Shown here in pieces: positions 18,451-64,000 of a stretch of DNA of 64,000 bases. Each line of letters opens with the position of its first letter. The stretch's first letter is position 1. This DNA comes from Boswellia sacra (lineage: Eukaryota; Streptophyta; Magnoliopsida; Sapindales; Burseraceae). A program made the translations under genes and the position numbers. The stretch spans positions 1-64,000 of the forward strand of contig SNVD02013041.1 in the NCBI GenBank assembly GCA_013180625.2, written 5' to 3'. The notes below the pieces were generated by a model that was not told the origin of the DNA, ran no database searches, and worked only from the letters and a program-made list of their open reading frames with translations.

Positions 18451-18700
18451 CACTACAATAAAAATGAGAATAGATGACTGACACTTTATGATAAATATCA
18501 TTATATCATAAAAAGATGACAAAGTTATGATAGAATTATGATCTATCAGAAAATTGATGATGTACGTATAACATATTTTTTGTCTATCAAGAATTTATGA
18601 TAGAATATTGATAGAAATTAACTCTATCAAAAACTTTGTGACAGAAATTTATTATTGACCATGTTTGACCAATTTTGAAATTAATATTTTATTAATTAAA
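18451..18700 (+). mobile_element. CACTA-type left end with ATCAA/TTGAT subterminal repeats
   Basis: It begins CACTACAATAAAAATGAG and is followed by many short copies of TCTATCA and TGATAGA in both orientations up to about 18640, as expected for subterminal transposase-binding repeats of CACTA elements. No right end was found. It appears to be a truncated or MITE-like copy. Confidence 0.5.
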
Positions 18701-18916: not shown

Positions 18917-19240
18917 CACTACAAAAAAACCCAATTTTTGCTAAAGCCATTTGAGGTGGCTTTTAAAGTCGATTGCCTATCCCTATCACTCGCATGCACC
19001 TACGCTTTGCTCTGTGCTTGCCTCTAATAACAGCTCCACTTCTCACTCACAGGCCAATCTGGTCCATCTCACTACAAGAAAAGTTGGATACGACAACATG
19101 TTTTTCGTAATACGCACTGATGCATGTTGTTGAATGATGCATTCCGCAACGTGCATTTCTTGTATGTTGTGAAAAGTTGGAATTTGGAATATTAGAGGCC
19201 CCTGATGATCCTTTATTCAGTTATGATATTTTCCAGTTTC
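18917..19240 (+). mobile_element. Two further stacked CACTA-type ends (18917 and 19070)
   Basis: CACTACAAAAAAACCC starts at 18917 and CACTACAAGAAAAGTTGG at 19070. The second is followed by repeats around ATGCATGTTGTTGAATGATGC and ends in TTGTGAAAAGTTGGA near 19173, which partly repeats its beginning. Neither has an identifiable opposite end. The LINE begins directly to the right. Confidence 0.45.
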
Positions 19241-20606: not shown

Positions 20607-22560
20607 TTAGGTGGAGGTAGATACTTCATGTCTATAATTGATGGTTGCTCAAGAAAGGTGTGGATGTAATCTTGAAGACTAAGGAGGAGATACTGTAGAA
20701 ATTTAAACATTAAGAAAAGATGGTTGAAGTCTAAATGGGTAGAAAAGTTTAGAAGCTTAAAATTGATAATGGTTTGGAGTTCTTGGATAAAGATTTCAAC
20801 CGCTTTTGCAATAATGGGGGAGTGGTAAGGCATAAAATAGTATTCAATACATCATAACAAAATGGCTTTGGCTGAAAGAATGAATAGAATACTTCTTGAG
20901 AGGATAAGAAGTATGTTGTTAAGCGTTGGGATGCCCAAGAAGTTGTTCTACTGTTAAGGTATGGATACGTTGATCTTATAGCTTTTACATTGTCAATATT
21001 AAAGGAGATTGATGGTAATGAGCCTAGAAGCTATAAGGAAGCGATGGCTTGTAGAGATATGAGTCATTATAGCAGGCAATAAAGGAGAAAATGGATTCTT
21101 TGAATAAGAATTGTACCTGGATCTTGATTGATAACACTACTAGACAAAAGGTAATAGGTTGTAAATGGGTATTCAAACGGAAAGAAGACAATTATGGTGA
21201 AAGAAAGCCTTGATACAAGGTTAAGCTGGTGGCAAAAGGATTCACATAAAACAAGGGCATTGATTTCAATGAGGTTTTCTCTCTTGTAGTAAAACACACT
21301 TCTAATAGAGTACTACTAGCTCTAGTAAACCAGTTTAATATAGAGTTAGAGCAAATGGATGTCAAAACTGTGTTCCTTCATGATAATTTAGAAAAGAGTA
21401 TTGTGATGGCAGAACTGGAAGGTTTTATGAAAGTAGGAAATGAAGACAAGGTGTGTTTGTTGAAGAAATCCTTGTATGGCCTAAAGCAGTCATCAAGGCA
21501 ATTATATTTGAAGTTTGATGAGTTTATGATCAAACATGGGTATACCAAGAGCAAATATGATAGTTGCGTATACGTCAAATGATTGAAAAATGGAGTTAGG
21601 ATTTTCTTGTTATTATATGTTGATTGCATCAAAGAACATGGAAGAAATTCGAAAATTGAAAATGTAGCTAAATAAGGAATTTGAGATGAACGATTTAGGT
21701 TATGTTAAGAAAATTTTGGGGATAAAGATCAGTAGAGATAAAGATAGAGGCTTGTTATTTTTGTCTCAAGATGACTACATTCTCAAGATGCTTGAGAAGT
21801 TTAACATGGCTAGTGCAAAGAAACTGCAAACTCCTTTGATAGCTCATTTTAAACTTCCAATGACACAATCTCCTACTACAGATGTTGAGAAAGAGGAGAT
21901 GGCCAAAATTCCTTAAGCAAGTGTTGTTGGGAGTTTGATGTACTCCACGGTATGCATAACACCTGACTTGGCATATGCAACTAGCTTCGTGAGTCGGTTC
22001 ATCGCAAATCCGAGTCGACATCATTGGGAATCTATCAAGTGGATATTTGAATATCTCAAGGGTATTTCAAGCTACGAGTTAGTGTACAAGAGAAGCAAAA
22101 ACATAGATGAAAAGCTGATGGGTTATATGGATGTAGATCTTAAGAATGATCTTGATAAAAGAAGGTCGTTAATCGGTTATATGTTTACATTGTTTGGTTG
22201 CGCCATTATTTGAAAAGCCAATTTACAATTAGTTGTGGTGCTTTCAACAACTTAGGTACAGTATATTGCTGCTACATAGGCTGCAAAATAAGCATTGTAG
22301 CTGCAAAGGCTTGTTGGTAGGTTTGGTGTGAGATAAGACAAGGCAAAAGTATTTTGTGATAACCAAAGTGAATGTATCATAAGAGAACCAAACATATAGA
22401 CATCAAGTTGCATTTCATTAGAGATGTCATTGTTGAAAGAAATGCTTTAGTAGTTAAAATTCATACTAAAAGAAATCCAGCAGATATGATTACAAAGCCT
22501 GTTGCAAGTGTCAAATTCAACACCTGTTTGGATTTGATATGAGTAATGGAAGAACTATTT
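20607..22560 (+). pseudogene. copia pol: integrase, reverse transcriptase, RNase H
   Basis: The integrase part has RYFMSIIDGCSRKVW and, further on, KIDNGLEFLDKDFN and NGLAERMNRILLERIRSML. The RT part has CKWVFKRK, LVAKGFT, DFNEVFSLVVKHTS, MDVKTVFLHDNLE and LKKSLYGLKQSSRQLYLKF. The catalytic YVDD box is damaged: at about 21616-21626 the text is YVD followed by a frameshift, so the second Asp is lost. Then MNDLGYVKKILGIKI, LMYSTVCITPDLAYATSFVS and the RNase H tail up to about 22540 follow. Several stops fit C-to-T changes of Gln or Arg codons. Confidence 0.87.
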
Positions 22561-25204: not shown

Positions 25205-25789
25205 AAGAGAGAGAGAGAGAGAGAGATTACAAATTGATAATTTGAAAAAGAGAGAAGATAGTTTGTGTAAGCAAAAGCATGTATTTCAAAACTTTCCATA
25301 GAAACAGCTCGCGCGTGGCGGTTGGATAAGCCAAGGGCAACTTTCTTATTGGTTTGCCCCCGTAGAGAATTAAAAATTTAACAAACCTGCTTAAAAATCT
25401 TTTTTTTAATTATTTTCATCCGTTAAGAATATATCTCCCTCCTTACGCTTATTTTAGTTTTATGTACGCACATTTTCAGTTGATTAAAACCAATCTATTT
25501 TATCAGCTCTTTATAAAATCTTTTATTTTCATTTTCTTTAAGAATTAAGTAAATACTGATGGATTAATTTTGAATTAATTTTTGGAAGATATATATAGAG
25601 CAATATTTAAATTGACAGATAAATAATATGAAAATATAATGTGGTCAATAATTATTTTTTGGAAATTAAAAAAACTTAACTAAGACTCTGAGGTTTATTT
25701 TAGAATTAGTATATTTCTTTTTCTTTTTTTTTTTTTAGTTTCCTAACCAAATTAGAAATGTTGGCTTGAGACTACAACAAAAAAGGGTT

Positions 25790-26480
25790 TTTGTGTCGGC
25801 CAAAAACTGACACATATCAAAATACATGTCGGTTCTTGCGCGACACGTATGGCCTTGACACGTATTTTGGTCAAACCGACACAAGAATATGTGTCGTTCA
25901 AAAAAAGACATGTATTAACAATTATGTGTCACTTAATAAGGGATTTTATTAAATATGTCATTTTTTGAACGACATATAATTTGTGTCGGTCAAAAAATGA
26001 TATACCTGTGTCATTCCCTGATCGACACATATCTAGTGTAGGTCAGAGAACGACATTGGTGTGTCAAATTATGACCGACACATATGACTTCTGAATCATA
26101 TGTGTCATACACTGAACGACACATAAATATTCACTAAGTGACACATATTCTGTTATCTATGTGTCGGTTATTGGCCGACACTAAATTTAAAAAAATTTTA
26201 TACGTGTCATTCGATGGCCGACACATATTTCGTTCACTAAGTGACACATATTCCGTTTTTTGGTGAATATATATGTGTCGGTTCTTAGCCGACACTTAAA
26301 CTTTCAAAAAAATTTATACATGTCATTCTCTGGCCGAAACATACTTCGTTTCTTAAGTGACACATATTCCGTTTTTTCGTAATCCTTTATGTGTCTGTTT
26401 TTGGCCGACACAAATCTTTAAAAAATATATAATACGTGTCAGGATGGTCTCATCCTGACACGTATTATATATTTTTTTAT
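25790..26480. repeat. Subterminal TGTGTCG repeats of the Pack-CACTA element
   Basis: The 9-12 base motif (A)TGTGTCGG(T) and its complement ACCGACACAT recur many times in both orientations, separated by 30-60 bases. In several places they form imperfect hairpins such as GTGTCGGTTATTGGCCGACAC around 26162. Similar motifs occupy the right end at 34630-34780 and a third site at 63160-63330. Confidence 0.8.
26420..26477. repeat. Perfect 27-bp inverted repeat with a 4-base loop
   Basis: Left arm 26420-26446 and right arm 26451-26477 are exactly complementary over 27 bases, with GTCT as the loop. The arm centre contains ACGTGTCAGGATG. It marks the inner edge of the left subterminal repeat zone; the subterminal motifs stop here and captured DNA begins beyond it. 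Confidence 0.9.
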
Positions 26481-28110
26481 TTTAAAAAAGTACATAAAAC
26501 TCAACAGACAAAAACACATTCCATAGCACTCTGCAAGGTGAATCGACTTTCAGACAGACAAAAAACAGGTGAAAGACAGAAAATGAACTATCAGTATTTA
26601 CATTCTGATAATCCAAAATCTAAATGCAAAACTATTATGGTTCAACTCATCCATTTATCACCACACAATGAAACAACAATAATTTCCACATTAAGCTTTA
26701 AAGTTCTGGACCTCAATTGTCAAATGTTCAGGCAGGAAACAAAAAGCTTTGCAGGTCTTGCTACAAAATTGACCAAAATAACTCAAAAAATAGAACCATA
26801 TCTTCAGCAGTAGATATCGTGAAGCATGAGGTGATTGGGTTTAAAAAGATAAACAAGTATAAGGAAGCATGCCTTCAATTCATCATCATAACCAACCAGA
26901 GAAAGTGCAAGTTCTGCATTTTCCTTGCCAACCTACATAAGCAAGGGTAAAATTCATACATGGAAGGTAGAATAGAATTTGTAACTCTCAATCATGGGAA
27001 AGGTCAAAGCATTGACTAACCACTCTAAAAGCAACCTGCTGAACTCTAGACAATCTATGATGCAGCAAATATGAGCTCAAACTACTTACAAGATACAGAA
27101 CCTAAGAAATTAGAGACATCAAATAAGAGAGCGAGGACCTAGCAGCATTAGCATAACACAAAACATATTCAACTAACACCTAGCCAAGTCAGGTAGGTTG
27201 CAAGCTAAATCCAAACAATAATGGTAATGGTGAAACAACAAAAACCAAGCCAACAGCTATAGAAAAGATTCAGTGCATATTGTAGAACAGAAAATTAGGA
27301 CATAAGAGAATAGTTTAATGCTAGTAACAAAGAAAATCAAATGTGCACATGAAAGAAGCAGCATTATTGACCATTGAGCATCAGTCGTCTTTCTCTACTG
27401 ATGTATCTATGAATTATATTGCATCATTCTGAATTTCATATTCTGTTGATGCAAACTTAATATTTAACAAGTGACATTGTCAACAAACTAGTGCCGGAAT
27501 CGGACAAGTTCAATATACTCATATGTTCAACACCATACATATGCTTCAACCCTATCTTTGCTATTATCTTTTGCCCCATGGGAAAAGCAAATTCTAAAAA
27601 ATTTTAAACAAAAAAGAAAAAACTCAACATCTATCACAAGGCATACTAAAAAGCTTACCAGAAAGATAGGAGTAGAACAAATGCAGCAAGAAACAGAATA
27701 TCAGGTCAAGCTGCAGCAATAAATTTATAATTTAAAACCACCCAATAAATTAGAACAAATGCAGCAAGAACAATGCTTGCCTCATAAGATCAATATAGCA
27801 TAAAAGAGAAAGACCAATAAATCCTTATACTGCACCAAGCTACACATCTATCCATCAATATCAAAATGAACACTGTAAAATAGAACAGATCTCTCAAAGG
27901 AGAACCATGCTAAAGCAGAGTGCTATACTATCAACATTTTAATTTTCATTTTTATTTCACTTCTTCCCTTTCCTATTCTGGTTTATCTGTAATTTCAAAA
28001 CACAGTTCTAACAAGATCTCTCAATTTATCCATCTGACATCAGATTCCATCATCAACACTTTAGCAATGCACAAAACAACCAAACAACATTCAAATCCAA
28101 AAACAAAAAT
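26480..28110. other. Non-coding interior of the Pack-CACTA element
   Basis: AT-rich DNA in which short plus-strand frames have no recognisable motifs. It may contain intron or untranslated sequence of the adjacent hydrolase fragment, but I cannot show this. Confidence 0.35.
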
Positions 28111-28113
28111 TAC

Positions 28114-28386
28114 CTGACTTTCGAGCTTGTAAGGATTAGGCAATTCTTTTTCTTCCCAATCTTTCCGACGAGGCCTAGAAGCCAATCCCCAACCAGGGCG
28201 ATCGAAAGCAGCAACTGGGCATCCAATCTGTCGAGCCAGCACCCCCATCACATGCCTCCATGAAAATACTCCTCCACTAAACCCATGCACTAAGACAATA
28301 CCAACCTGACCTTTTCCCTCTAAATCTAGCTCTAAAGTCCCAGTCTGCATTTCTTCCTCCTCCACGGTATCATCTAGGCTCTAAAC
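28114..28386 (-). pseudogene. alpha/beta-hydrolase gene fragment (one exon)
   Basis: A single minus-strand exon encodes about 90 residues typical of a plant alpha/beta-hydrolase family: QVGIVLVHGFSGG, then FSWRHVMGVLARQIGCPVAA, FDRPGWGLASRPRRKDWEE and LPNPYKLESQ. It ends at a good donor (CAG, then GTAATT). The HGFSGG segment is the oxyanion-hole region. The nucleophile elbow and the Asp and His of the triad would be in later exons, which are absent. A TAG stop lies upstream in frame at about 28378. The substrate cannot be told. It lies on the same strand as the TOR and CCT2 pieces. Confidence 0.82.
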
Positions 28387-28997
28387 AAGAATATCTTCAG
28401 AAAGAACAGTAGAAGTTGCAGAACCATCTAACAGTGGAGCATAGAGAGAAGAGCTTTGAAATTGCAGAACCATCCAACAGAACCATCCAAAATTTGATCC
28501 TACCTAGAGAAAAGCATGAGCATTAAAATTCAATGATAGGACAGTAATACATTGAGCTACAACAATTTACCGATGTGAATTCAAGCTAATAGAGCAATAT
28601 TTTACATAAAAAAAAAGAAATAAAATCAAGTAATTAAATAAAGTAATGCATATCTTTGCTAATTGTTTTGATAATAACTTTCTTCCATGCCACCCGCATG
28701 CCCTTATACTAAAAGGCCATCTTATAGGTCCAATTAAAGCATAAAACAATTAGATATTAATTAAAATTAATTAATTAAAGAGAGGAAGCTGGTGATCATT
28801 ACTAAAATTCTAGAAGAATTAGAATCATAGTTGAGAAATGTAAGTCACATGTTTACTAAAATTAATTAATTAAAGAGAGGATGCCTATAATGAATGGCAT
28901 ATGGCAGCTTACCTAGGATTAGATACCAAATTAAATGAACAAATGAACATTTATTAAGTAAGTATCAAATGAACAAGAAACTCAAAATCTGAGCTTC

Positions 28998-30785
28998 CAC
29001 TACAAGTAAAAGTCAATGAATTTTTAATTTAGAACATTTAATAAGCATTTGTTGTTGTCTCTAGAATAAGCAATAATGGAGTTGATTGTTGTCTTTCACA
29101 AAAAAGAACCCAAAAAACTAAGATCTATATTTTTAGCCAGAAAATGCAATAATAAGTTAGCATGATGTCATAAGTTCTATACCCATAATACCAATTTCGT
29201 ATTCTAATCATTAGAAGTTAAAGGAAGAAACAACATAAGAAAATAAGTATTTAAGTCCATTAAGTCAAAGCATTAGATTATACTACCAAGATTATATATA
29301 GAAAGTAGAAGAATGTGAGCAAACGGTAAGTAAAATGCAAACTGTTTGATCCATCTTCAATCCATCAGTCATATTAGCAATCACTATTAATATTGACCAA
29401 TACAGTGATTGGTTCGTTGACCTACTGTAACTGTTTGATCATCAAATTCAGAAACATGCAAGCATGGCAAATACATAAAAATAAATAAATAAACATAATT
29501 GTTACTGTTTTGCGATCTTTAACGTTGCTACGCTTTTTTGTGGCTATCGGCCTCCGGCTGAAGAGTCTCCAGAAAAGTTGCAAAGGTGCCTCATCAATTT
29601 AAAATATAGACCCAACCTGTCAAATTCCATACATTAGATAATGGATCTATATCCTTATTTTATTTTTAAGGATCGTGGATGGTCAGATCTATTAAAAAAT
29701 TCTTCTTCACAGGTAGAGAGACGGTTCTGCAAAATGAAAAAAAAAAAACCCACCATTTAACAAAACTGCAGAGACCTATTCCTCAATTGAAAAAAAAAAA
29801 AAAAAACAAAACAAAAACAAACAAGCATAAAATAAAAAGTTAAATCGAAAGGTTGAAGTAGACGAGTAAGGGGAATAAAATAATAGATGAAAAAGGCTAG
29901 AAGGTGAGCATAAACTTTCAAAGAAAAATGCCGAACCTCCCAATAACAATCTTTATTCTGCCACAATATTCTCTGGCCAGAGAAATCTCAATTTTTAAAC
30001 TTTCTTTTTCTCCTTGTTCTTTTTAATCTTCGATTGGAAAACAGCAATTGGAACATCCTTCTTCAGCTATAAATATTTTAATTTTGCCAAAAAAAAGTGA
30101 ATAAATATGAGCCGTATTTTTTTTAATGGAAACATGTCACAAAATCCTTTTAGTTTTTATGAAGTAGATTATTTGGCTTAAATTTTTCTACGATTTAGGG
30201 ACCTGTAAATAGGTGTAAACATCTCCAAACCTTGTATCGTTCATGATTTCAAATTAAGATTAAAAAAAGCCTAAAAATAGGCAAACCCACATGAAAAATC
30301 AAAAGTTAAAACTCCATAACAGATTATAAAACACAAAATCTGTTTACGTCACATAAAAACAAAACACAAAAATAAGAAAAAAAATAAGAAACCTAGATGG
30401 AGAATGAGGAAAAACAAGAGATTTAACTTGAAAAGGGTTGGTGAGAAACAACAAAAAAGATAAACTTTAACCTGAGAGAGAAAAAGAAGGAGAAAATAGG
30501 TGTGGTACAGCCTCTTTATGCATAGGTGACTAGAAATTGTTGTCGAGAAAGCGATGATGATGAACATTCAGAGAAGAGCGGCTAGGGCAGAATCAAGTGA
30601 ATTAGAGAAGGAGGGGAAATGGGTTTTTATAATAGCAAACATGTAATTTATTGGAATTTAATAACCGACAACTATGGTAATTAGGTGATTTGACTTTGAG
30701 AGCCTTGTAATATTTGATGGTTTTTTTAAAAACCCTCAGATAAATAAATAATGATGTGTCAAATATTTACAAAATTCTTGTAGTG
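28998..30785. mobile_element. Possible nested CACTA-like element
   Basis: CACTACAAGTAAAAG begins at 28998 and an inverted counterpart (minus strand CACTACAAGAATTTTG) ends at 30785. The outer three bases differ (ttc on the left, aag on the right), so there is no target duplication and the pairing is unproven. If real, it was inserted between the hydrolase and TOR pieces. The interior is AT-rich and non-coding. Confidence 0.3.
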
Positions 30786-30887
30786 AAGACAATCAATGGA
30801 CAAGAATCCGGAAAACATAAGTCAAATTAAAAAATTATACAATTTTTTTCTAGTAGCTCATTAATTAGACAAAACTCAGCCACTAAC

Positions 30888-32931
30888 CTGCACACGAGGG
30901 ATTAAACTTGTCAAAGTTTTGATAGCAGCATGCCTTTTATCTATTGAAGCATCCACTTTGAAAAAGCGAGTAAGTGCAGGGAGAAGCAGATGCATGTGTT
31001 CATCCAGTGTCCCTACATTTATTATTTATTTTATAAGGACCAGTAAACTGATTTTATTAAAAATAATAAATAGCTACAAGCTGGTTGATGGCAATGATCC
31101 ACCTAAAACATTAAAATAAAATAGATGAAAATATCACTTGAAAAAAAAATTCTAATCTCTACTAAAAAAACAAAAACAAAACAAAAACAAAAAAGAAAAA
31201 AGAAGGAGAAAGCGAAAAAGAAGAAGATTGTCAAATTGTGAAGAATCTGAAGACCACAAAGAAAATAAAAGGAGAACAGTCCCAAAGAAAATCATTACCT
31301 TTGTCAATAGTCTTCAAAAATTCTCCAACGTCACTCTAATCATAAAACCAGCTTTTCCTTCCACATCGCTTCCAAAATGATTATTAGCAAATAATGCAAT
31401 ATAAGAACCCAGCACAACAGATTAACTTCCACACCCTCTCTAAATAGTTTGAACCATAAGCGCTTCCATCCAACTAGAAGAAAACAAAACACGGTTGTTG
31501 TTTTCATTCTTTTCTCGTACTGTATTTTTGTTGTTCACAAGAATGCAAGAATGGATATGGTAATTCTAATATAATGCTTTACTGGACTAGAAAATCACAC
31601 GCTTCCACACTAGCAAAATGTTTGGACAAATTGTCACAGAATGGAGAATACTAACCACCAAACACTCCAAGGGTGTGGAGAACATCAAGAACATAGGTGT
31701 AGTCATTGCACCGTTCAGTCTCACTTAAAACTTGAATGCAACATGGAAGAATAGTAGGAAGATGTGCTATGAACTCATCATTCAGAGCCAAGCAAAGCTG
31801 TTCCACAAGATGCAGCACCTGAGAAAAGATCAAAAGCAAGGGAATGAGACATAATTGAGAATGAAATTGAAAAACAAATCAAACCATACAATATGCAGAT
31901 TACCATAACTGCCAAGGAAAAATACAGGAATATATATATATACACATACTGGAAGACCACGTGAAGTACGATTAGTAGCTGGCAAACTAAAGGATGACCA
32001 CAGTTCAGAAATTAGAGAGAACAATTCTTGCAAATATTTGCGAATATGCTACACAGGAACATTAATTCCAAACATTTTGAAATCCAAAAAATCAAAATAA
32101 ACAAATAAATGTGGTAATAGATTCCACAACATCTATATATACCTGATGCACGATAGACACTAGTGTTCCAAGGTTCCATGTTATAAAATCCCTCAGATAA
32201 TCAGCACATGTCTGAACAGTGTTAAAGAGATCGGGCAGCAACTACAGAATAATGGCCAAGGGGAAACCAGAATTCGTCTAGTATTATTCAATCAACAAAG
32301 TCTAGTGCAATAATATCAAAAGTCTAAGTAAAGAAAATGAAGAATTCAAGAATGGTAACAGCTAAATTTCACCATGCACGACTATCCTCGCATTTTAAAT
32401 TAATCTTAACTACTCTTGAATTTTAGATCAAATATAGGGCATCAGATAGAAGACAGACATTTCTTTGCATACGTTAAGTACTTCAGCATACATAATTCAA
32501 AACTTCTAGAACAAGATATTAAGAGCCTGTTTGGTTATGAATTTTGTGTTTAATGGAAAATCCAGATCATGATTCACATGAATGTCTTGCTCCCAAAACT
32601 AAAGATCCAACGACAGAGTATGAAGAAAAAGTTTTACCAGAGAAATTCGATCACAACTGAAAAGTTATTAGACAAACCTTTGGTAAGTAAGGAACACAAC
32701 CTAGGCCCATTGACTAACCTCCCAAAGAAAAAAATCAAATGACAAAAAATATGAAAGGAAACTAAGAAAATAGTGAAGATGTAACAAAGAAATCAGATGA
32801 GATTTTTTTTAAAAAAATTGTTTAAATACTAAACACACCTTGAATATGAACATAAGAGATCCAACCACCTTTTGGTAGCAACTAGCAAGAGAAGGATCCC
32901 TAAGAATTTGAATGAGAGAATTGATTGCAGC
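30888..32931 (-). pseudogene. TOR: TOR kinase gene fragment: six exons of the HEAT-repeat region
   Basis: TOR is the central growth-controlling kinase; its N-terminal half consists of HEAT repeats. Six minus-strand exons match a continuous stretch of it. They are 32839-32931 (LRDPSLASCYQKVVGSLM), 32678-32713 (SMGLGCVPYLPK), 32143-32241 (LLPDLFNTVQTC, DFITWNLGTLVSIV), 31950-32048 (HIRKYLQELFSLISELWSSF), 31656-31818 (VLHLVEQLCLALNDEF, RCNDYTYVLDVLHTL) and 30888-31012 (GTLDEHMHLLLPAL, IKTLTSLIPRVQ). All donors are GT and all acceptors AG. Exon lengths sum to 615 nt, 205 codons with no stop and matching phases (the last junction splits a Gly codon). The kinase, FRB and most HEAT repeats are missing, and no native start is present, so it cannot make TOR. 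It is a genomic-DNA capture rather than a retrocopy. Confidence 0.92.
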
Positions 32932-33320
32932 CTGATTCAATGGAACATAGAATTAAAATAAGTAAATTGATTGGGTGCTAGGCTATATCTTCAGGCCACC
33001 TCCTCTGCTTTAGTGATCGATGCACATTCAGTAGAACTAAGAAAAGAGGCACCTGACCTGCAATACACAAGAATTCAACATATCACATAAGTAGAGAAAG
33101 AGAAAATTACAGATCTACTCCACAGTAACTTTAGAAAGCAATTTTTAGCATAATAACCACCACCTAGACCTTCAAACAAAAGTAAGAAAAAAAAACCAGC
33201 AAAATTATTCAGTTTTTGCAACCAAGTTAAATTCCATCGTAGAAGTACAGTTACTCAAATCATAGCAAGATGCCAAAAATACAAGAGAGGTCCGCTGCCA
33301 GGAAAATAGCGTAGCCATCT
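32932..33320. other. Junction between TOR and CCT2 pieces
   Basis: This stretch contains the 3' side of the CCT2 fragment after its stop codon and the upstream side of the first TOR exon. I recognise no further exon, although about 33000-33055 on the minus strand reads as a short open segment (GASFLSSTECASITKAEEVA) that I cannot assign. Confidence 0.4.
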
Positions 33321-34283
33321 TTACAATCTATCTTTTCTCCTCCTTGGGGCACAAGTGATGATTTCATCAACTCTAAGAATCATCTCAGCAGCCTCAGTTG
33401 CAGAGAGTAATACAGCCTGCTTAACTTTGAATGATTCAAAGATACCCAGCTCAACCATATGTCTTACGTGTCATAATTTTAGAAATGCCAGTAACAGGTA
33501 AAAGCTACAGAAGCGAAAATAAATGATTAAAATTTGCAATAAAAGTCTAAAGCATCAAAAGAGCGATTAAACCTATAACTATAACCAATAACAAGTAGTA
33601 ACCGAAGAAGGATATAATTAGGTCTGTAATCTAAAACCTTTTCCCCATTAAATATTGAGGCCGTATTTTGGTTAGCATAGACTTATATAGATAGTAAAAT
33701 TTATACAATAATGTCCATTCCCAATGAGCTCCCTCAATCACTTTCCATGTGAATTTTCATAGTCGATCCAACGTCACACTAGATCTCAAAATAATTTTGA
33801 GTTGCATGGTAACAAGGAAGCCATGGCCTAAAATCAAAATGTTTCAAACAGTGTAACATTGCCTCACAAAAAAAGGTGCACTTTGTTCATATAAGGTGTA
33901 TAATAGACCATTTCAAACCCAACATACATCCAACTTGTTTTTAAACTACTTTGGTTTCAGAACTTATAGATCCAGATATGACATCAATTTCTGTTGTGCA
34001 TCCATCCTTCTGGTGCTCTGCATGAAGCTGGGCAATCAACTCAGCACTGTATAAACCAGCATTGTCAGCAATGGTTGCTGGAATGGCAACAAGTGCCCAC
34101 GAAAAAGCATCAATAGCATGAGACCTTTTTCTATGAGTCTTCCGTGCCAACTCATCCACTTCCTTTGCCATCACCATCTCAGGCCATACGCCTCCAAGCA
34201 AAACCCTGGTGTCATTAACTGTCTGAGACAACACGTACAAGGCATCATGCAAAGGCCTCTCAACCTCATCAAGCACATGGTGG
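33321..34283 (-). pseudogene. CCT2: Chaperonin CCT subunit beta gene fragment (last two exons)
   Basis: CCT beta is one of eight subunits of the cytosolic TRiC chaperonin that folds actin and tubulin. Exon one, 34283-33968, encodes HHVLDEVERPLHDALYVLSQ, LLGGVWPEMVMAKEVDELAR, SHAIDAFSWALVAIP and EIDVISGS. The second, 33458-33321, encodes [20 protein letters not shown] and [12 protein letters not shown] and ends in a TAA stop like the native C-terminus. The first exon starts at an AG acceptor. Its donor appears mutated from GTAAGT to ATAAGT at 33967, so splicing to the last exon is doubtful. No stop interrupts either exon. Everything before the last third of the protein is missing, so this is a non-functional fragment. 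Confidence 0.9.
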
Positions 34284-34321
34284 CTGCGATAAAATATTAA
34301 CATAAAATTAATTTGAAGTTA

Positions 34322-34432
34322 AAGTATAAACTTCAAATTTCTGTCTCTAATGTCTTGGATTCGGCTGCGAAACTGACTCCACAGCTTGACTACCACAACT
34401 CTCCAAGTCTTCTTCAATCGCCATTAGAGAAA
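34322..34432 (-). pseudogene. 5' end of an STY-type ACT-domain protein kinase gene
   Basis: From an ATG at about 34421 the frame reads MAIEEDLESCGS, then AVESVSQPNPRH, a TAG stop, then RQKFEVY. This corresponds to the start of plant STY46/STY8-like Ser/Thr/Tyr kinases, where NPR-QQRQK-EVYNEVL follows. The TAG replaces an expected Gln (CAG). Homology ends at about 34322. The sequence upstream of the ATG (to about 34560) is leader-like and may be the captured 5' UTR. If so, the whole minus-strand cargo could be transcribed from this side. The ACT and kinase domains are absent. Confidence 0.6.
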
Positions 34433-35079
34433 CACAGAAAGTAGATCAAATAATAATGACGAAGATGAAAACTTCTAAAGAGCCGATGAAGTTAGAGATG
34501 CAATGAAGAGCCGATGAAGTTAGAGGGGTGGCGGTGAAGAGGCCGTTGGAGAAGAAAAAGATGATAAAGTGTGGTTCTAGGGTTATAGCCTTTTATATTT
34601 TTATAATTTCTTTTTTATTTTTATAAGTGTAAATACTTGTCGCACATGAGAGTTACGTCACAGGGCATACCCGCTTTTTTTTTAAACGTGACATATATTA
34701 AGTTTGACCGAATTTAGAGTCTTATATGTGTCATTTCTCTGGGAAGCGACACCAAATTTGTGACACCAAAGCTCCATTTTCTTGTAGTAATACCATCTTG
34801 ATAGTAGCTCTGTTGAAATCTTTAAAGATCTTGTGACACGTGAATTTAGCCTTTATAATGATTATGATTATTTATTTACTCTCTATGTCTTAATATATTT
34901 CCACCAATCATCAATTACATTTTTTTTAATGTTTTATTCAAGTAAGGAGAGAAATTTAGTTCCATTTGAAAATGCCCTGACTTTTCTTTTTTCAAGCGGC
35001 AAACATCTAGGCACTACGCTCCCTCATAGTCTAGCACTGTCCAACAATTAGTTTAATACAACAATACCTTATACGATAT

Positions 35080-37455
35080 GTATCCAATGACTTGGTCTAA
35101 CAACGTTAGGGAGCATTGGTAAGAATTAGTATGGTTTACTTGACAATTAGGTCCATATAATGACGCAATTTTTTAGGTATAATAAAAATTAATTAGATAA
35201 ATCTTTATGAAATTAGTTAATATTACTAAAATTTTATAGTCCCTTAAAAGTCTAGGATAAGTCATCCACTTTGATGGAAAATATAAATTAAAGTTAGACA
35301 AAAAGTTATACTCATCTCTCTACCGATAAAAGATCAAAACCATAACTTATTGCTCTATCTAGCTACCTACTAAAAGTTAGGGGGGCGTTTCTTTTCTTTC
35401 GTTTCTTTTTGTTAGAAATCTGAATATATAAATAATATGTTTTTCCTTCAAATATGATAATAAGCCTTAAGTGCTTTATTTTTCTTAGTTTATATATTAT
35501 ACAAACAATTAGTAGTTGAAAAAATTAAAAGAAATTATTATAGTGTCATAAAATTAATATTTTTGGTTAATTTATTGTAAAAATAATGTGAAAATTAGAA
35601 TATATATATGTAAAAAAATTAGTTATGTAATTACTTAATTTTAAATGAATGATTCATAATATATTCTTATGGGAAACGTATCTAATGACTTGCATATAAC
35701 GATGCTAAGAGACATTAGTAAGAATTAATATGGTTGATCACATGACAATTAGGTTCATATAGTGACATAATTTATTAGGTGTAATAAATTATTAAATGGA
35801 TAAATGTTTACATAATTAATTATTATTACAAAATCGTTTTAGTCCAGTAAACGTCTTGGAGAAGTTATCCTACTTTGATGAAAAGTAGGAATTAAAGATA
35901 GATTAGAAAACTACATCTCTTCGCCTATAAAATATCCAAACCATCACTCATTATTCTATTTCTATATAACTATTAAAAGTTAGGGGGCATTTTTTTTCTT
36001 TAAATTTGAATATATGAATGATATGCTTGTTTTTGTTTTTATTTTTTTCCTCGTCAAATCTAATAATAAGTCTTAAGTTATTTATTCTTCTTAATAAGAA
36101 ATATTAAGAAACTAGTAATGTGCCCTATGTATTATACAAACATTTGTAAACTAGTCGAACATAATCAAAATGAATTATTATAGTTTCATAAAATTAACAT
36201 TTTTATTTACTTTCTAGTACAAATAATAAAAAATAAAAAATAGATATGTAAAATAAATAGTTGTGTAATTACATAATTTAAATGAATGATACATAATAAT
36301 ATATTCTCATGATATATTATTTAAAATTTATCATTTTCAATAGAATTCTAAGTCGTAGTAGGTTGAATTTAGAGAAACACATGATTTATGTAATAGGAAA
36401 CAATTAAATCAATCAGGATATTTTAGAACTTCAAAGTAAAGAAATCCTTTTGTTCATTTATACATTAAGATAAAAGCTAAAAAATTTATTAGATTTATAA
36501 TTGAGATGGATTTATCTTATTCTAATACTTTAACCAGAAAAAAAAAGAGTGGTGTTACTCTTATAATTCCAATTTGCAACATAAATTAATTTAACTTATA
36601 TCTTTATTTAATTAAATGAATAATTCTATTCAAAATAATACTATGCTATAGGAAACAGGATTTTTAGTGATAAAAAAGATAGTCACTCACAGTAAAGCAA
36701 AAAATTGTCACTAAAAGTTTTTGCAATGAAAAAAAAGTTTCTTGCATCATGAGAGCAAAAACACGGTTGTAGAGAGTTTTAGCAACTAATCTTATGTTTG
36801 GTAACGAGGTTTTAAAAACAAAATTACAAAATTCATAAACAAACACACCCAAAATTTAAAATTTTTATGGGCTTTGTTATGTTTCAAGCCTCTTAGGAGT
36901 TTGTCCTTTCCTTTTGGGCTTTTGATGTTTTTGGGCTAGACTTAGATGCCAATTTTAGCCCTTTCAATACTTTATTCGATAGTTACTCACATTTGTAGGA
37001 TGGGACACTAACGACATTTTCTTAGGAATTGACTGGAAAAAACAATTTAAATAGGTTGCATTTAAGTAACTATATTTCATTCCATCATTATTTTTGTCTT
37101 AAAAAATAGATATGTTTTTTGAATGATATTAGACATTAAAAAAAAAATTCTTTTAAGGATATTAGACAAAAACTAAGTCTAGCCCTTTCTTAACAATATA
37201 GGAGAAACAAACTACCCAGATTAACTCTCTTATACATTAATTAATTTTGAAATTACATGGCAATATTACTTTCTCTGTTTTAATTTGTTTAAGTAATTTA
37301 TTTTATTTATATAAGGTGAAAAAATGTGAGGTCCTTTTTGTTAGTGTCAATGTGTACTACACTTGCATGTGCCATGCACATGATGATTTTAGACCAGCTT
37401 GTGATAAAACAATAGGATGAATAGAATAGAAGATAAATAAAATTTATTATACAGA

Positions 37456-48014: not shown

Positions 48015-49520
48015 TTATGCAAAAGGGATATTGATATGTAGCTTTTTAAAGACCCCCAAAAACCTAGAGAATTGTTTATCAAGCTTGCTCTTTTGGAGCC
48101 TTTGAGGAAAGGGAACTTTAGGAACTGGTTGTTGAGTGGGCAATGATGTATTTTGAACCTTGTTATCATTAGTCTTCATTGGTAATATGGTTGCAGTCAC
48201 TGGTTCTTCTTCTTCCTTCTCCTTTTGCTTCTCAACTTCCATTGGTTCACCTAACTCTTTACCACCCCTCAAAGTAATAACTTTGCAATGCTCTTTTAGG
48301 TTCACTTTAGTAGTACTAGGTAAATTACCTTGTAGTCTTCCTCCAATCATATTAGGTAGCTGACCTACTTGAGTCTCCAAGCTTCTAATTTGGGCTGATC
48401 GATTTTGAAAATTGTTGCCTGTTTCAGCCATGAATCTTTTCATAAAGCTGGTTGTGGTTGTTGTCAATTGGGCCAAGGCTTCTTTTAGAGATTATTTCTT
48501 TTCTTGTTGAGGAGGTTTAATGGCGTTTTAGTTGCTCCAAGAGAAATTTAAATGATTTCTCCAACCTGGTTTGTAGGTGTTGCTACAAGGGTTATTCCTG
48601 GGATGTTGTAATCAACATAGCTAGCTTGCTCAACCTGTCTTTGGAACGGGTTTCCTTTTTCGCACCCCTTACTAATTTGGTTGCCTGGGCAGTGTTCACA
48701 TACAGCTGCTGGAATATGGATGGCATTGGCTACCATAGTATGATTTTGTAGTTGCCTAGATAGTACAGCTATTTGTGCTTTCAAAGAGTCAATCTCATCT
48801 AAATTGTGAAGTCCAACTAGCTTTTTAGGTGCAGCTCTCTTACCATTCGATTGAAAGTTGTTCATAGCCATCTCTTCGATCAAGGCATATGCTTCATCTT
48901 GCATTTTCTTCATAAAAGCTTCTTCTGAAGCTGCATCTATTAGAGTTCTTGTTGAGTGTCCCAAACCATTGTAGAATGTTTGTACTTGCATCCATTTGGC
49001 TAGGCCATGATGAGGACACTTTCTAAGCAACTCCTTGAACTTCTCACATGCATCATAGGTAGATTCTCCCTCATATTGTGCAAATTTAAAGATCTCCATT
49101 CGTAGCTTGACTATCGTTGATGGTAGGAAAAATTTGGCAAGGAATTTTTGGGTTAACTCCTCCCAAGTAGTTATAGAATCTACAGGTAACAAATTCAACC
49201 AAATCTTAGCTCTATCTTTTAATAAAGGAAGAATGCAATCTAATAGCATCATACGTAACTCAATTAAACTTGAATGTTTCACAAATTTCAATAAAATTAG
49301 CACGATGAGCATTAGGATCTTTATTAGGTAGTCCACAAAATAGAGATGATTGAATTATCTGCAGAGTAACTGGCTTAATCTCAAAGTTGTTTCCTTGAAT
49401 GGTCAGCTTCCTTATAGCTTCATGAATTCCCATTATCTTAGCGAGCATGTAATCCATGAGTCTTGAATTAGTTGGAATTATAGCTCTTTTTCCATTTTCT
49501 TCCATATTGTTAGCCGTCAC
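48015..49520 (-). pseudogene. gag of the non-autonomous element
   Basis: ATG 49520 opens MTANNMEENGKRAIIPTNSR. A frameshift near 49260 leads into the capsid part (RAKIWLNLLPVDSITTWEEL, KFLAKFFLPSTIVKLRMEIF, STYDACEKFKELLRKCPHHG, RTLIDAASEEAFMKK), then a degenerate zinc knuckle (CEHCPGNQISKGC). A second break near 48540 leads to the helix LETQVGQLPNMIGGRLQGNL and an acidic stretch ending FLGVFKKLHINIPFA. The gene is recognisably Athila-like but interrupted. Confidence 0.88.
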
Positions 49521-63137: not shown

Positions 63138-63400
63138 TATTCCTATACATGTCATTTGGTCAACCTGACATAAACCTTAATGTTGGTCAGTAAGGCGACA
63201 CATTTCTAGTTTGAAATTGGTCTTATGTGTCGATTTTCGTGAGTTATGTGTCGTCTAGTAGCTGACACGTACTTATGGAGTAGACATGTCAGTTTTTTAT
63301 CTGCATGTCGTTTTTTACCGATACTGATTTAAATCTTTGTTTAAAAAATATACTACTTGTCGATTCTTTTGAACTGGCAAGTAGTGTGTGTATATATATA
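63138..63400. mobile_element. Subterminal zone of a CACTA-type element related to 25770-34789
   Basis: The motifs TATGTGTCG, GCGACACAT and GCTGACACGT recur in both orientations, as at 25790-26480. The zone ends with AAATCTTTGTTTAAAAAATA followed by an inverted repeat (ACTACTTG 63352-63359, CAAGTAGT 63378-63385). This is the same arrangement as the hairpin at 26420-26477 but with a different stem sequence. The terminal CACTA itself is missing at the left junction. Confidence 0.6.
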
Positions 63401-64000
63401 TAGAGAAATCTGGTTTTTTATATAATATTATAATACTATAGATGCAGTATCACAAACACCCATATGCTATAAACTTAATAGGCAACAAAAATACAAAACA
63501 ATCAAATCCCAAAACACTATAAACTTAATCAAACCCAAATCCCATTACAAGCTAGCTCAGAACTACACATTCCAAACAAAGTTAGAAATCCAAAGTTGAA
63601 CTTAGATCAAAAGGAAACAAAGTTTAATTCTACAACATATATAGTACTAATTTCTTACTAATCAAACCCCATTACAAATCCAAAAATCAAACACAACAAA
63701 ATTAAACTACCAAAAACAAGCACAAAACTCTAAATTATGCACTATAATCAAGTGATAATTAATGAGTCCACTATACCCAGTTGTATTGCATATAACTATA
63801 AAAATTAATTGTTTATACAATAACAAATAAGCAATAAACATAATAAATGCAGCATCTCAACTCCAACAATCAAGAAAAGGTTGATAAGTTCAATTCATAA
63901 ATCCAAAAGCTAGCATGTGAACCATTCTAATTGAGAGAATCTTTAGACACTTTTGTGGCTCTTAGGAAATCCTTGGACACTAAACTAGTCTTTTTGGTTC
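63401..64000. other. Unassigned A/C-rich DNA
   Basis: Text rich in CAAA and ACAA with no coding signal. By position it would be the interior of the element starting at 63138. Confidence 0.35.

Follow-up and report, generated by a model that had tools for sequence, protein, structure and literature searches.

Mosaics of gene fragments between CACTA-type ends have been described before, in soybean and elsewhere among plants. In soybean, the CACTA element Tgm-Express1 holds fragments of five unrelated genes within 5.7 kb; it lies in intron 2 of F3H, and chimeric transcripts starting at the F3H promoter have been cloned (PMC1947982). Captured genic regions and chimeric transcripts are also reported for the Tpn1 family of Ipomoea nil (PMC5105172), and CACTA-like elements of Chenopodium contain captured gene fragments (PMC8978399). 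The capture model put forward for Pack-CACTA elements has same-orientation neighbours fuse and be mobilised as one, together with the intervening DNA (PMC8903248, section 9; PMC13317346). Because multi-gene capture is already published for Tgm-Express1, and capture of genic sequence for Tpn1 and the Chenopodium elements, the unit described here is of a known kind. It occupies positions 25770–34789 of a 64,000-nt stretch of Boswellia sacra DNA (contig SNVD02013041.1, positions 1 to 64,000; the window), and the analysis supports its identification as a CACTA-derived unit with pieces of unrelated genes in a single orientation. We consider it probable that this is an old, non-autonomous CACTA-derived unit, Pack-CACTA-like in its working and now decayed. 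With several donors and an internal terminus that can still be read, the locus is a further example relevant to the way in which CACTA elements gather pieces of genes; it is this internal terminus that deserves a second look.

The unit is delimited by a left CACTA-like terminus on the plus strand (25770–25782, GACTACAACAAAA, first C changed to G) and a right one on the minus strand (34777–34789, reverse complement TACTACAAGAAAA, first C changed to T). Each is identical to CACTACAA[GC]AAAA at 12 of 13 positions, the sole mismatch being the first base. Past their first nine bases the two ends share 14 of 19 bases, which is matched at a fraction of 0.0001 of window positions. Part of this similarity is explained by A-rich composition, because among seven other CACTACAA-like sites those at 18451 and 56949 reach 11 of 19 against the left end and the one at 18917 reaches 10 of 19. 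In the left subterminal region (25786–26485) a TGTGTC/CGTGTC/CATGTC-type motif occurs 28 times, counting the two orientations together. The region also has 116-bp tandem repeats and is closed by a hairpin whose 27-nt arms (26420–26446 and 26451–26477) pair perfectly. A motif matrix, trained on the 28 motif copies of the left array itself, matched 31 times in 25770–26485 and 50 times in the remaining 63,284 bases (mean 0.12 per 150 bp). By the same matrix, the final 150 bp at 34789 hold three matches and a further one lies at 34632, giving a right subterminal region at 34632–34776 (matches at 34632, 34684, 34723 and 34742). Subterminal repeats, as expected of a CACTA element, are thus present at both ends, as judged by a matrix derived from the left one. 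A first-pass annotation had described inverted CACTA-like ends with subterminal repeats; the pairing and the motifs bear this out, but the terminal C is lost at both ends, no target-site duplication (TSD) was found for the four pairings of ends examined and an additional end lies inside.

No TSD of 3, 4 or 5 bp was found for 25770–34789 or for 25770–30785, even with a 1-base shift, and none of 3 bp for 28998–30785 or 28998–34789 under the same shift. The flanking triplets are TGA at 25770, TTC at 28998, AAG at 30785 and ATA at 34789, and none of them match. Having looked for this feature and not found it, we do not formally assign the unit to the CACTA superfamily or to Pack-CACTA. The lack of a TSD would also suit an origin in which a Helitron, break-repair filler or an assembly join gathered the pieces and CACTA ends lie nearby by chance, and TOR pieces may indeed be caught by other routes, as PF14214, which we take to be a Helitron-type domain, is present in a Solanum verrucosum protein model with a TOR fragment (P0158). 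Against such an origin, the outer-end pairing and the subterminal repeats both stand above the window background, and we regard it as very unlikely.

The interior was surveyed from a list of 94 open reading frames (ORFs) of at least 40 amino acids overlapping 25500–35100, 18 ORF stretches inside the unit being scanned for domains. No transposase domain was found in these 18 stretches, in agreement with the earlier impression that the unit has no visible transposase and with what is expected of Pack-CACTA elements. Fragments of host genes, likewise expected of Pack-CACTA elements, are supplied by CCT2, TOR and an alpha/beta hydrolase, and the minus-strand orientation proposed for the cargo holds for all three. 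The proposal of a CACTA-type element with at least four host genes is therefore confirmed by domain and sequence matches for these three donors, whereas the fourth, a kinase, is a tentative assignment. This kinase-like piece (34347–34424, minus strand) opens with an ATG at 34424 and runs for 25 codons including the ATG, MAIEEDLESCGSQAVESVSQPNPRH, before a TAG at 34347–34349; it presumably resembles the N-terminus of STY-type kinases. Above the ATG, leader-like sequence extends by eye to about 34600.

CCT2 is represented on the minus strand by its penultimate exon (33968–34283) and its last exon (33321–33470), with Cpn60_TCP1 matches of 5e-25 and 2e-09, respectively. The penultimate exon is open and keeps its AG acceptor, and CCT-beta is its best NCBIfam model (3.5e-30, under the whole-protein cut-off of that model). 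At its donor, ATAAGT stands in place of the expected GTAAGT; judging from the protein letters of the best match, P0001, the donor was probably GTAAGT originally. Identity to P0001 is 82%, and the similarity seems to extend into the stretches where P0001 reads through the adjacent introns. The last exon is delimited by stop-to-stop ORF limits and has its own stop codon, the acceptor being uncertain. In a comparison with 10 of 103 matches, some of which may themselves be gene fragments, CCT2 showed six private changes at 58 otherwise invariant columns, against 0–3 in eight of the ten comparison rows and seven and 10 in the other two. From these counts, the piece looks relaxed.

The TOR piece consists of six colinear minus-strand exons (32839–32931; 32678–32713, 36 bp, SMGLGCVPYLPK; 32143–32241; 31950–32048; 31656–31818; 30888–31012). 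Together they span 615 nt without a stop, and all five introns are GT-AG. Since the introns are kept, the TOR piece came from DNA and not from mRNA. The spliced piece (205 aa) matches residues 954–1142 of mTOR chain 5h64_A with 3.4e-34 and plant TOR fragments over its full length with up to 81% identity, the top full-length matches coming from Stylosanthes and Pistacia. Single exons match weakly or not at all: exon 1 alone has no match among PDB sequences, exons 5 and 6 alone match TOR chains at best with E 0.0011 and 0.038, and mTOR_dom was found in two of four TOR pieces scanned, in one of them under its cut-off. The identification therefore rests on the spliced piece. Compared with five of 72 matches, which include partial models and from which full-length TOR was excluded by length in the search, the piece has 11 private changes at 107 columns invariant in the five rows, the leave-one-out values of these rows being 3–13 at 110–119 columns; by this measure most of the partial models compared seem to fare no better. 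Reading the open TOR frame as a sign of constraint was rejected, as the private changes lie within the range of the comparison rows.

Among the plant proteins, five models (P0147, P0158, P0174, P0181 and P0185) join a TOR fragment to unrelated sequence labelled MMS19, PF14214, ATG101, PF00646 and aspartate transaminase. They look as if TOR pieces had been repeatedly captured or duplicated, or had been mis-modelled.

The hydrolase exon (28114–28503, minus strand) keeps its GT donor and contains an in-frame TAG at 28381–28383. It matches Abhydrolase_6 at 1.1e-05 and its top match is 74% identical over 80%, all NCBIfam matches being far below their cut-offs. Plant homology extends from about 28464 (upper limit by eye) to 28114, i.e. 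it starts in mid-exon, and a 13-bp tandem repeat (28465–28490) lies beside this apparent start. A possible fifth cargo piece is an exon-like stretch of 20 residues after an AG (26873–26932, minus strand, VGKENAELALSLVGYDDELK), for which Pfam, NCBIfam and the PDB sequences yielded no match and which we tentatively take to be SMC2-like. The description of all cargo as intron-containing applies fully to TOR only; the CCT2 donor has lost its GT, the hydrolase is a single exon and no intron is seen in the kinase-like piece.

The internal terminus lies about 100 bases beyond the last TOR exon. It is an exact CACTACAAG on the minus strand (30777–30785), in right-end orientation, with two weaker motif matches in the adjoining 150 bp. 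Four exact copies of CACTACAAG occur in the 64 kb against an expectation of 0.34, a count attained in 0 of 100 shuffles. Because such an exact end sits inside the unit, two elements may be involved: one at 25770–30785 with the SMC2-like and hydrolase pieces, and a second one that has lost its left end, its right part ending at 34789, with the kinase-like, CCT2 and TOR pieces, the two never having moved together. The excess of CACTACAAG, the adjoining motifs and the missing TSD of the outer pair all suit this arrangement, as does a leader-like stretch that by eye follows each right end, the one adjoining the internal end being TATA-like and CT-rich (30420–30640, minus strand). The terminus at 25770, however, pairs far better with 34789 than with 30785 (14 versus 8 of 19, the latter a level seen at a fraction of 0.14 of window positions), and 25770–30785 lacks a TSD as well. 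Two separate neighbours are thus a possible explanation that we do not favour. A further exact CACTACAAG inside the unit (28998–29006, plus strand) has no motif in its next 150 bp and reflects chance or another family; a clean nested element at 28998–30785 was rejected, given flanks of TTC versus AAG and the missing motifs at 28998.

Under the reading of an old, decayed Pack-CACTA-like unit, the element would formerly have moved with transposase supplied in trans, and the gene pieces would have been captured as genomic DNA, introns included. Growth may have proceeded partly by fusion of adjacent same-orientation elements, leaving the internal end at 30785, and the right end may have contributed a host-derived leader from which a minus-strand RNA, non-coding or truncated, could start. 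With a change at each of its terminal bases, the unit does not look mobile any more. In broad terms, the published fusion model would produce such a locus, yet under that model the internal ends should be deleted or mutated. Several observations sit uneasily with this account. Besides the missing TSDs, it is the two outer termini whose first bases are non-canonical and the internal end whose core is exact, opposite to the published scheme (PMC8903248, Fig 3 legend); the perfect 27-nt arms of the hairpin at 26420–26477 look younger than the decayed termini would imply; and the hydrolase shows no excess of private changes (one at 43 columns, against 0–3 of 42–46 in the comparison rows, which represent seven of 36 matches and may in part be gene fragments themselves).

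A more specific version of the fusion idea takes the locus as a frozen intermediate, in which host TOR DNA links two neighbouring elements of the same orientation, one with its end at 30785 and the other with its end at 34789, and the inner terminus can still be read. If this were true, the order of capture, with TOR late, could be derived from one locus. Because the published scheme expects the internal rather than the outer ends to be damaged, we hold the decayed unit to be probable, short of firm, and the frozen intermediate unlikely. Among the literature matches listed on internal or composite CACTA ends, none was more specific than PMC8903248.

The leader-like segment and ATG at the kinase end had also suggested one chimeric transcript through all cargo. 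A single protein from this ATG through the cargo is ruled out by the TAG at 34347–34349, which follows after 25 codons. Disabling changes are present in three of the five pieces, namely this TAG, the ATAAGT donor of CCT2 and the TAG of the hydrolase exon. A chimeric RNA from the unit might still be functional, or the unit might give rise to small RNAs that act on TOR or CCT2. The leader-like start, the single orientation, the intact TOR splice sites and the open TOR frame could be invoked for this, and chimeric transcripts are known from Tgm-Express1, where the host F3H promoter starts them (PMC1947982). With the early stop, the altered CCT2 donor, the stop in the hydrolase exon and the relaxed appearance of CCT2 (six private changes at 58 columns) all speaking against it, we think such a function quite improbable.

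Outside the unit, the matrix detected a second motif cluster of seven matches at 63144–63300, followed by a hairpin at 63335–63405. The sequence flanking this hairpin resembles that flanking the one at 26420–26477, and both hairpins occupy the same relative position behind their cluster. Plain BLAST of the 63144–63405 region against the left subterminal region returned short weak matches only, and no outer terminus was found for the cluster, which we take as the subterminal region of another, damaged family member and count in favour of the decayed CACTA-derived unit. The window as a whole is plant-like DNA with a GC content of 22–42% in 2-kb steps. It contains retrotransposon gag ORFs at 1596–2537 and 48551–49354 and an RVT_2-type reverse transcriptase at 21250–21579. 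A plus-strand match to Rfam snoR71 (49002–49108, 58.7 bits, gathering threshold 40) lies within a minus-strand retrotransposon gag ORF, and 44369–44677 matches PF20167 Transposase_32 weakly, under its cut-off.

Among the described systems, Tgm-Express1 is like the Boswellia unit in being of CACTA type and in containing both exons and introns from a number of unrelated host genes; unlike it, the Boswellia unit shows no TSD and has an extra internal end (PMC1947982). The Tpn1 family, compared by description only, shares En/Spm-type ends, subterminal repeats and a captured genic interior, but 339 catalogued elements have 3-bp TSDs (one of 5 bp, 14 with a mismatch), which were used to pick them (PMC5105172). 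Pack-CACTA or Pack-TYPE elements of Arabidopsis, maize and rice resemble the unit in their CACTACAA ends, in host coding DNA from several loci and in the same-orientation fusion model; they were found through TSDs and copy clusters, whereas the Boswellia unit shows no TSD (PMC8903248; PMC13317346), the TSD being given as 5 nt for rice and maize (PMC8903248). In the Pack-CACTA fusion scheme, internal ends are deleted or mutated, whereas in the Boswellia unit the internal core is exact (PMC8903248).

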